DNA of 64,000 nt from Sulfurovum sp. (lineage in GTDB: Bacteria > Campylobacterota > Campylobacteria > Campylobacterales > Sulfurovaceae), in NCBI GenBank assembly GCA_030949325.1, contig JAUZSQ010000041.1, forward strand, positions 1 through 64,000. Reading direction: 5' to 3'. Below the pieces are notes generated by a model that was not told the origin of the DNA, ran no database searches, and saw only the letters and a program-made list of their open reading frames with translations. The translations under genes and the position numbers were made by a program. Positions 24,196 to 26,884 of this stretch are shown one piece after another (the first letter of the stretch is position 1; each line of letters starts with the position of its first letter).

Positions 24196-24810
24196 GTGAA
24201 AGATTTACTAAAAGAAAGCACCCTGTTCTCTGCTTTAGAAGAGGTAGATTTGATTGCTTTGGAAAAGATTGCCTCTGTGTGTAGTTATCATGAGGGTGAA
24301 ACACTCTTTGTCGCAGGTGAGGTGAGTACGGTATTGATGCTTTTGGTAGAAGGTGTGGTAAGTATCTTCAAGCATGATGATAAAGGCAATGAAATTGTCA
24401 TAGGCTACTTTAGCCGTGATGCACTCCTTGCCGAACCTGCAACATTGAGGCATAGCCCTTTGCCTTCTTCTGCTAGGTTTGTCACCCAAGGAAAGCTACT
24501 AAAGATTGAACTTAGAGCATTTGAAAAGACTTTTCTCCACTCTCCCAATATTTCTCATGCTATCATACAATCTCTGCTTAAAAAGATAGAATTACTACAG
24601 CAAAATATACATTTCAATATAGCCACCAGTGCCAAAGAAAAGATATTGCAGTTTTATACTAAAAATCCCACACTGAGTGTAGATTTGAAGCAGTATGAAA
24701 TTGCTTCTGTCTTGGGTATGACTGCTGAGACATTTTCACGAAATATAAGCAAACTCATCAAAGAAAAGAAACTTCTCAAAGTCCGTATGGGTTATAAAGT
24801 GATAAAGTAA
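24196..24810 (+). CDS. Crp/Fnr-family regulator, NssR-like
   Basis: 204 residues from GTG 24196. Cyclic-nucleotide-binding-type beta barrel (HEGETLFVAGEVSTVLMLLVEGVVSIFK), a long dimerisation helix (ISHAIIQSLLKKIELLQQN), and a C-terminal winged helix with SVDLKQYEIASVLGMTAETFSRNISKLIKEKKL; the recognition helix reads TAETFSRNISKL. No Cys set for an Fnr-type Fe-S cluster is visible. The gene directly downstream encodes a single-domain globin, the same pairing as NssR with its globin target in Campylobacter, so it is probably a nitrosative-stress regulator. Confidence 0.85.
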   Translation: MKDLLKESTLFSALEEVDLIALEKIASVCSYHEGETLFVAGEVSTVLMLLVEGVVSIFKHDDKGNEIVIGYFSRDALLAEPATLRHSPLPSSARFVTQGKLLKIELRAFEKTFLHSPNISHAIIQSLLKKIELLQQNIHFNIATSAKEKILQFYTKNPTLSVDLKQYEIASVLGMTAETFSRNISKLIKEKKLLKVRMGYKVIK

Positions 24811-24825
24811 GTGTACTAGAGAGTG

Positions 24826-24847
24826 CTTCTTGACAATTGTCAAGAAG
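24826..24847. promoter_or_regulatory. 22-bp palindromic operator upstream of the globin gene
   Basis: A perfect palindrome with core TTGAC-AATT-GTCAA, a Crp/Fnr-type site of spacing N4; NssR of Campylobacter jejuni is reported to bind TTAAC-N4-GTTAA. A TATATT hexamer lies at 24866-24871, which puts the likely transcription start near 24878 and the operator centre at about -41.5. That is the classic class II activator position. It could alternatively fold as an RNA hairpin after the regulator stop. Confidence 0.75.
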
Positions 24848-24900
24848 AGATTAGCACTTTTTTGTTATATTGGCGTATCTAAAAACAAAAGGATACACCA

Positions 24901-25322
24901 TGAATGACAGCACTAAAAATATTATCAAATCTACAGCACCAATACTTAAAGCACATGCCGAAGCAATTACTACGCAAATGTACAAAATTTTATTTGCAAA
25001 ATATCCTGAGACACAAACTTTATTTAAAGATGCCTCTCCTGAGCAATCTAAAAAATTGGCAGCCGCAGTCTATGCTTATGCAGCCAATATTGATAAGTTA
25101 GAAAATCTCACTAAAGGTATTGAAAAAATGGCTAGCGTACATGTAAAAAGCAACATACTCCCCAAACATTACCCTATGGTAGGCGATGCACTACTTCAAG
25201 CTATTAAATCAGTATTAGGAGATGGGGCAACGGATGAGATAATGTCAGCATGGGAAGAAGCCTATGGATTTTTGGCAGATGTACTCATAGCAAAAGAAAA
25301 AGAACTTTACCTCAAAGGGTAA
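24901..25322 (+). CDS. Single-domain haemoglobin (Cgb/Vgb type)
   Basis: 140 residues. Globin landmarks: TTQMYKILF with the distal-pocket Tyr (B10, residue 28), SKKLAAAVYAYAANID in helix E, and KMASVHVKSNILPKHYPMVGDALLQAI, where His 81 is the proximal haem ligand. No reductase domain follows, so it is the single-domain Cgb/Vgb class. In Campylobacter this protein converts NO to nitrate. It is probably activated by the Crp/Fnr protein encoded upstream through the palindrome 53 nt before its start. Confidence 0.93.
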
Positions 25323-25397: not shown

Positions 25398-25808
25398 AAA
25401 ACAAACTAAATAGAAAAGACATTAAAAGGGACGCAGAGACGAGTGTTTATGGCTCGTGTAGTAAAAGCATTGGGATATGGAGGACAATATTATGTGGAAA
25501 AAGAGTTCCACTGGAATCGTGAGACACTGAAGAAAGGGAAACAAGAACTAGAAAGTGGAGAAGCAATTATAGATAATTTTTCAGGAAGAGGGAAAAAGAG
25601 AATAGAAGAGAAATTGCCAAATTTATCGATAGACATCAAAAGTATTGTCGATGGAGAAGCCCAAACAGACCCCACATTCAAGACCACAAAAAAAATTCTT
25701 GAAACAGATGAAATCTTTGAAAACCTAAAGAAAATGCATCAAAAGTGTGAAGCCGATGAAAGTATATTGCGAATTTCAATGGATGAAGTTGAGAAGAAAA
25801 TAATTTGA
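25398..25808 (+). pseudogene. Remnant of an ISAzo13/Rhodopirellula-type transposase (N-terminal part)
   Basis: The frame from about 25398 reads KGTQRRVFMARVVKALGYGGQYYVEKEF, then RETLKKGKQELESG, GRGKKRIEEKLPNL, GEAQTDPTFKTTKK and finally ILRISMDEVEKKII before a stop at 25808. This resembles the N-terminal third of ISAzo13-family transposases (R-R-x-x-A-x-E-A-x-x-L-G-x-G-G, GRGRK, and the ISVD block with the first catalytic Asp). Full-length members are about 400 aa, so the catalytic core is missing. No inverted ends recognised. The AT-rich 180 nt that follow show nothing more of the element. Confidence 0.5.
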
Positions 25809-25990: not shown

Positions 25991-26884
25991 ATGAATATTT
26001 TTCAAAATAGATGCTTGTTGAGTGTAGGATCAATAGTGATACTCTCCCTTTTGGGATGTAACAATAGTAGTAATCTCCGTCCCGATAATTATGTAGGGAA
26101 TACAGGTGAAGTTTCTAATGAGATTATTGCTCAACAACGGACAGTACTCAAAGAAAGTATTGTGGGTCAAGATGTTGGTGCACAGTCTCCTAGGAATATA
26201 GATGTACTAAGAGGCTCTAATCTTAAAGCCACAGTTACTGCACCTGCTTCTACAGAGATGTATCTTTGTGATATCCATTTTCATAAGAATGCAGAGCATA
26301 AAGGTGGAGAATTTACTACCTATGCAGGGAATGGTAATGCAGAAGGATATGGAACAGGGTATAAATATTCTGGAACCTTAACAGAAGAAGAAAAAATGCC
26401 TTCTGTCATTGAAGATAAGGCTAATACATTATCTTCAGGAGATACCATTGAAGTACACTATGTTTATTCTGGCAATGCCTATGCATCACTAGGTAATGGA
26501 CTGGGTACTTGTTTTGGAGATGTAGTCAAAGGTACACAGCCTTTGTTACGAGTAGAAACACAAGTATATGTACTCGTATCTGATGAAACAGCCTTAGATT
26601 TTAAAGATTTAACCAAGGTATCTATGGTGAATGGTCGTTATCAAGCAGAGAATATCCCTTCAGACACAGGTACACCTATTGAATATGAAGGTTCGACAAC
26701 GGGTCCTGGATATAATACAACAGTTTCACCATATCAGGTGACATGGAGAGTACGTCCAAATATTGCAAAGGTAAATATTACAACAGTAGGAGAGTGGTTG
26801 AATGATAATAATTTTGAAGAACATTATGCACATGCAGTAAGAAACCTTGTACTCAATACAGATCTTCTTTCTGATATACAATAA
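25991..26884 (+). CDS. Delta-class carbonic anhydrase-like lipoprotein
   Basis: 297 residues. Signal peptide with lipobox LSLLGC (Cys about residue 23), so probably anchored on the periplasmic side. YLCDIHFHKNAEHKGGEF and, later, TIEVHYVYS supply three candidate zinc His residues in the arrangement seen in delta-class carbonic anhydrases (H-x-H plus E-H-K, then E-V-H). Two Cys (CDIH and GTCFGD) could form the known disulfide. It would hydrate CO2 in the periplasm, useful to an autotroph. It stands alone after the transposase remnant, with an AAAAAGGAATAAATT ribosome site. Confidence 0.75.
   Translation: MNIFQNRCLLSVGSIVILSLLGCNNSSNLRPDNYVGNTGEVSNEIIAQQRTVLKESIVGQDVGAQSPRNIDVLRGSNLKATVTAPASTEMYLCDIHFHKNAEHKGGEFTTYAGNGNAEGYGTGYKYSGTLTEEEKMPSVIEDKANTLSSGDTIEVHYVYSGNAYASLGNGLGTCFGDVVKGTQPLLRVETQVYVLVSDETALDFKDLTKVSMVNGRYQAENIPSDTGTPIEYEGSTTGPGYNTTVSPYQVTWRVRPNIAKVNITTVGEWLNDNNFEEHYAHAVRNLVLNTDLLSDIQ

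Follow-up and report, generated by a model that had tools for sequence, protein, structure and literature searches.

The Palindrome and the Predicted Promoter of the Globin Gene

A perfect palindrome separates a Crp/Fnr-family regulator gene from a globin gene in this Sulfurovum sp., a sulfur-oxidizing bacterium, and the locus raises the question of whether it is the switch of the globin gene and, if so, which protein operates it. In the window, i.e., the whole analyzed stretch of 64,000 nucleotides, the regulator gene occupies positions 24196–24810 of the forward strand (204 aa, GTG start, PF00027 and PF13545). The globin gene (24900–25322, same strand) encodes a single-domain globin of 140 aa, of the flavohaemoglobin/Vitreoscilla/Cgb type, starting at the ATG at 24900 and not at the start of a longer TTG ORF. 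Direct reading placed the palindrome, the TATATT box and both genes where the preliminary description of this DNA had located them. Six globin residues, Tyr28, Phe42, Gln49, His81, Tyr91, and Glu133, were invariant in alignment A1, and we take them to be B10, CD1, E7, F8, G5, and H23, respectively. In the PDB, the globin matched thermoglobin best; Vitreoscilla haemoglobin and C. jejuni Cgb ranked lower in the list.

The 22-bp palindrome CTTCTTGACAATTGTCAAGAAG extends over 24826–24847, without strand, and relatives do not share the outermost 4 bp of either arm. Within it, the likewise strandless 14-bp core TTGACAATTGTCAA (24830–24843) is kept before orthologous globin genes. The operator is centered at 24836.5, and the first base of the –10 box TATATT (24866–24871, forward strand) lies 29.5 bp from this center. 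The transcription start of the globin gene predicted from that box is 24878 on the forward strand, exactly 41.5 bp beyond the center. Class II Crp/Fnr sites are centered at –41.5. Furthermore, a promoter scan of the window found no TTGACA-like –35 hexamer 16–18 bp before TATATT, which fits an activator-dependent promoter. The –41.5 center, the –10 box and the lack of a good –35 element are together those of a class II Crp/Fnr promoter with a predicted start.

In the 64 kb window, CTTCTTGACAATTGTCAAGAAG was the sole perfect palindrome of at least 18 bp, and 60 first-order Markov copies of the window held on average 0.5 palindromes of at least 18 bp and 0.1 of at least 22 bp. The 14-bp core was not rare genome-wide (6 in 2.53 Mb); it is the position kept across related genomes, and not the sequence alone, that sets it apart from chance.

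Conservation of the Site and of the 29.5-bp Spacing

Genomes of Campylobacterales supplied 66 globin genes of the cgb type, and the region upstream of each (up to 160 bp) was scored regardless of distance; globin matches had to reach 50 bits, and four second copies with weak scores (60–62 bits) were left out of the sample. A full 10/10 TTRAY-N4-RTYAA site was present in 46 of the 66 regions and a site of at least 9/10 in 48, while Markov shuffles of the same regions (200 runs) gave a mean of 1.39 full sites and a maximum of 7. The full site was absent from the other 20 regions; nine of these belong to family f16, and the second globin copies of G003 and G027 are also among them.

When the best –10 hexamer was picked by its similarity to TATAAT alone, it lay exactly 29.5 bp from the site center in 42 of the 48 regions whose site scored 9/10 or higher; at other positions of the same sequences, this spacing won in 3.2%. 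By family, and with the rows being related, the counts were 11/12 (f1), 1/1 (f3), 1/1 (f6), 1/3 (f8), 20/20 (f10), and 8/10 (f13); the spacing failed in f4 (0/1), where it was the second choice. The positive control, G386, has a globin that equals C. jejuni Cgb (2WY4) at every one of 138 aa, and it carried the site TTAACACAAGTCAA at the same 29.5 bp. The class II geometry claimed earlier for this promoter was thus borne out by a spacing conserved across families. Judged from the site and spacing that relatives keep, the globin operator would be a real switch of a largely known kind, although its layout within a probable terminator (see below) appears unusual. This fixed distance from Crp/Fnr site to –10 box, found before cgb-type globin genes of Sulfurovum, Campylobacter, Helicobacter and others, makes globin switches of the NO type recognizable from sequence.

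Among the closest relatives, the flanks varied around a constant 14-bp core. Because the core stays while the flanks change, the conserved unit in these sequences is the core only, and not the 22-bp palindrome. A stretch similar to AAATCAGACNAATTTACTCCTATT, just upstream of the operator, was conserved in G005, G028, G039, G043, G059, G060, and G106 and was absent from the window. In G326 (C1:27772–28320), the regulator gene was broken by several stops and the globin operator was intact.

A Terminator-Like Hairpin Overlapping the Proposed Operator

The palindrome lies inside a larger terminator-like hairpin (24818–24863, forward strand), which starts 8 bp after the stop codon of the regulator gene. 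Its stem, in which AGTGCT (24822–24827) pairs with AGCACT (24853–24858) around the palindrome, carries a 7-nt one-sided bulge and is followed by a T-run at 24858–24863. The predicted fold had an energy of –18.1 kcal/mol (z –4.2), the most stable among the 46 promoters folded, i.e., those with a full site only (next, –16.1 and –14.4), and it was the best of 110 hairpins abutting at least five T in the window. A simple terminator scan of the window did not list it, and no known RNA family matched it at E 0.1. A stable hairpin and then a T-run after a gene are the marks of an intrinsic terminator, so termination is predicted here, and the hairpin is probably the terminator of the regulator gene.

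The gene order fits this reading. In G039, G043, G054, G062, G183, G385, and G442 the globin gene precedes the regulator gene on one strand, and in other relatives the two are non-adjacent or on different contigs, whereas in the window the regulator gene comes first, so that a terminator would separate the two genes. Hairpin arms that hold G+C were found in the window's genome alone among the genomes compared.

Both the stability of the hairpin, unmatched in either comparison, and its start so close behind the regulator stop codon would suit a palindrome whose sole function is intrinsic termination of regulator transcription, with no part to play as an operator. However, the core keeps a constant distance from the start codon and the –10 box in relatives that have a different upstream gene and lack such a hairpin, which makes this explanation improbable. 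As to the operator embedded in a terminator, we tentatively suggest that one 46-bp element may play two roles, ending the regulator transcript as RNA and serving as a class II activator site as DNA, in which case bound regulator could roadblock or tune the termination of its own gene.

The Regulator and Its Sites in the Genome

The adjacent regulator was the one PF00027 protein, and the sole detectable Crp/Fnr gene, in the genome. With completeness at about 93%, another gene of this family may be absent from the assembly. Its recognition helix reads E178-S181-R182 (CRP positions A180, E181, and R185). The structure model of the regulator had a pLDDT of 87, and the 50 PDB matches listed for it bear the names of Crp/Fnr-type regulators or of putative cyclic-nucleotide-binding proteins. 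The protein is without the FNR cysteine cluster, having one Cys in its 204 aa. This residue, Cys29, was considered as the NO sensor and rejected, being kept in only 4 of the 19 members of the regulator's clade. His139, in contrast, is shared by all 19 clade members, and the model puts it on the long central helix; it is a candidate heme ligand, heme binding itself being only a guess.

No sign of autoregulation was found, as none of 15 genomes had an operator-like site 150 bp or less from the start of the regulator gene. In 11 of the 15 (L008–L017, L243), the regulator ATG follows 5–7 bases after the end of a TATAGT or TATAAT box, which suggests that the regulator mRNAs of these relatives may be leaderless. 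The regulator gene in the window has AAGGAT and a GTG start instead.

Close copies of the regulator (at least 50% identity) were found in 14 of 100 genomes and the globin in 15, with both in 11 (Fisher p 3e-9, indicative only since the genomes are related). The three genomes with the regulator and without the globin were 74–87% complete.

The preliminary description had called for a search for further TTGAC-N4-GTCAA promoters. Six sites of this pattern, the globin site included, were present in the genome; five lay within genes, as called with a simple gene caller for which some of these assignments rest on ORFs of 60–100 aa, and the globin site was the sole intergenic one. A larger regulon in this genome was rejected on these counts. 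The relaxed pattern TTGAY-N4-RTCAA occurred at 40 places, and among the 78 oriented sites scanned for a –10 box at 29.5 bp, a match of 5/6 was found at the globin site, again the sole intergenic one, and at one other, intragenic (L080).

In three relatives (G024, G050, and G015), the same 14-mer precedes, with the 29.5-bp spacing, a gene that we presume from its sequence to be nrdD-like, encoding a protein similar to anaerobic ribonucleotide reductase. TTGACAATTGTCAA and a TATAAT box at 29.5 bp were located there at L107:2669, L113:1501 (minus strand), and L321:2724 (counted on the minus strand). A search of these Sulfurovum genomes for a close copy of the window's regulator found none. Other Crp/Fnr proteins can hence use the 14-mer, which by itself names no regulator. 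Together with half-sites of the FNR type, this occurrence would accord with an operator that serves another, Fnr-like Crp/Fnr protein and not the product of the adjacent gene. Such an assignment is nevertheless quite improbable, given that a single PF00027 protein was found in the genome and that this regulator type and the globin strongly co-occur. The adjacent regulator is thus retained as the protein most likely to bind the operator.

Half-Sites and Relation to Known Systems

In families f1, f3, f4, f6, and f8, both halves were TTGAY in all 18 full sites. In f10 and f13, which would correspond to Campylobacter (from the 2WY4 match) and Helicobacter, 25 of 28 full sites had A as the third base of the half more distant from the promoter and G in the closer one. 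The operators of these two genera are therefore lopsided, with TTAA far from and TTGA near the promoter, an asymmetry that the symmetrical published NssR consensus misses. Part of PMC1274295 links Ala180-Gln181 of NssR to TTAAC. Gln181 as the cause of the TTAA half was rejected, since the regulators (taken as the best A2-profile match per genome) of the 26 full sites with TTAA on the left comprised 22 with Glu181, 3 with Gln181 (G282, G289, and G386) and 1 broken (G326). As far as these sequences tell, the operator asymmetry is not explained by regulator residue 181. In the window, the helix E--SR agrees with the TTGA half-sites under the code set out in that source (PMC1274295).

The system most alike is NssR-cgb of C. 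jejuni, which also has a Crp/Fnr regulator, a single-domain globin as target and a site centered 29.5 bp from the –10 box. The operator there is TTAAC-N4-RTCAA, in contrast to TTGAC-N4-GTCAA in the window, and the reported NssR operator TTAAC-N4-GTTAA likewise differs from the window's site, both halves of which are TTGAC. The regulators fell in separate clades: the window's regulator and 18 others formed one (99, quick tree), and NssR of Campylobacter and Helicobacter another (99). The rows of nine genomes (near-copies) were dropped from the first regulator tree, and four more long rows from a later one. The earlier label "NssR-type" fits only loosely: the globin target and the class II spacing agree, the half-sites differ, and the regulator grouped apart from NssR, although a joint clade of the regulator group and NssR was not rejected (p-AU 0.292). 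The regulator is predicted to act like NssR, which does not make it NssR itself.

The TTGAC half-site had also been described as one base away from the reported NssR TTAAC. It is no variant peculiar to this genome, as it corresponds to the HcpR motif of delta-proteobacteria, TTGACnnnnGTCAA, published in PMC1274295 (part), and fits the consensus TTGA-N6-TCAA for Nss-type regulators of Campylobacterota, as given in part of PMC11539149. The HcpR1 regulon predicted in delta-proteobacteria (Rodionov et al., 2005; PMC1274295, in part) shares the motif wyTTGACnnnnGTCAArw and the E181 code, and the TTGAC-N4-GTCAA site of the window fits it exactly. The same part of this source predicts HcpR control of a cgb ortholog in A. 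ferrooxidans. In contrast, the main target of HcpR1 is hcp, and no PF03063 match was found in the window's genome; HcpR1 carries Ser/Pro180-Glu181, whereas the window's regulator has Ala180-Glu181 and its relatives Ala or Pro180-Glu181. The Nss regulators of Wolinella and Nitrosophilus recognize TTGA-N6-TCAA at sites that begin 48–49 bases before the start, equivalent to class II; however, the targets named in the relevant part of PMC11539149 are nap, nor, and nos genes, with no globin among them.

Proposed Control of the Globin Gene

Crp/Fnr proteins are able to repress, and the site overlaps the position of a –35 element. That the regulator represses the globin gene from this operator until NO releases it is nonetheless the least probable of the explanations weighed, as the promoter lacks a TTGACA-like –35 hexamer 16–18 bp before the –10 box, as an activator-dependent promoter would, the 29.5-bp spacing is constant, and in the known NssR-cgb pair the regulator activates its target (PMC4601167, in part).

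Activation by the adjacent regulator is, taken as a whole, the likely mode of control. A dimer of the protein encoded upstream would bind TTGACAATTGTCAA, centered at –41.5, and touch RNA polymerase in the class II manner, switching on the single-domain globin. The trigger would most likely be NO or other reactive nitrogen species, a signal suggested by the globin type and by analogy with NssR; according to part of PMC4601167, NssR activates cgb and its DNA binding is unchanged by NO. The hairpin and T-run would end the regulator transcript and insulate the globin gene from read-through, so that the same stretch could be an insulator as RNA and the binding site of the regulator as DNA.

Shortly after the globin gene, the beginning of an ORF at 25443–25808 repeats part of a longer ORF located at another place in the genome (L066:417–932), and the ORF at 25443–25808 is therefore likely a truncated mobile-element gene; a Pfam search with it gave no match. 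A delta carbonic anhydrase gene (PF10563, E 2e-64) is present at 25991–26884 in this Sulfurovum.
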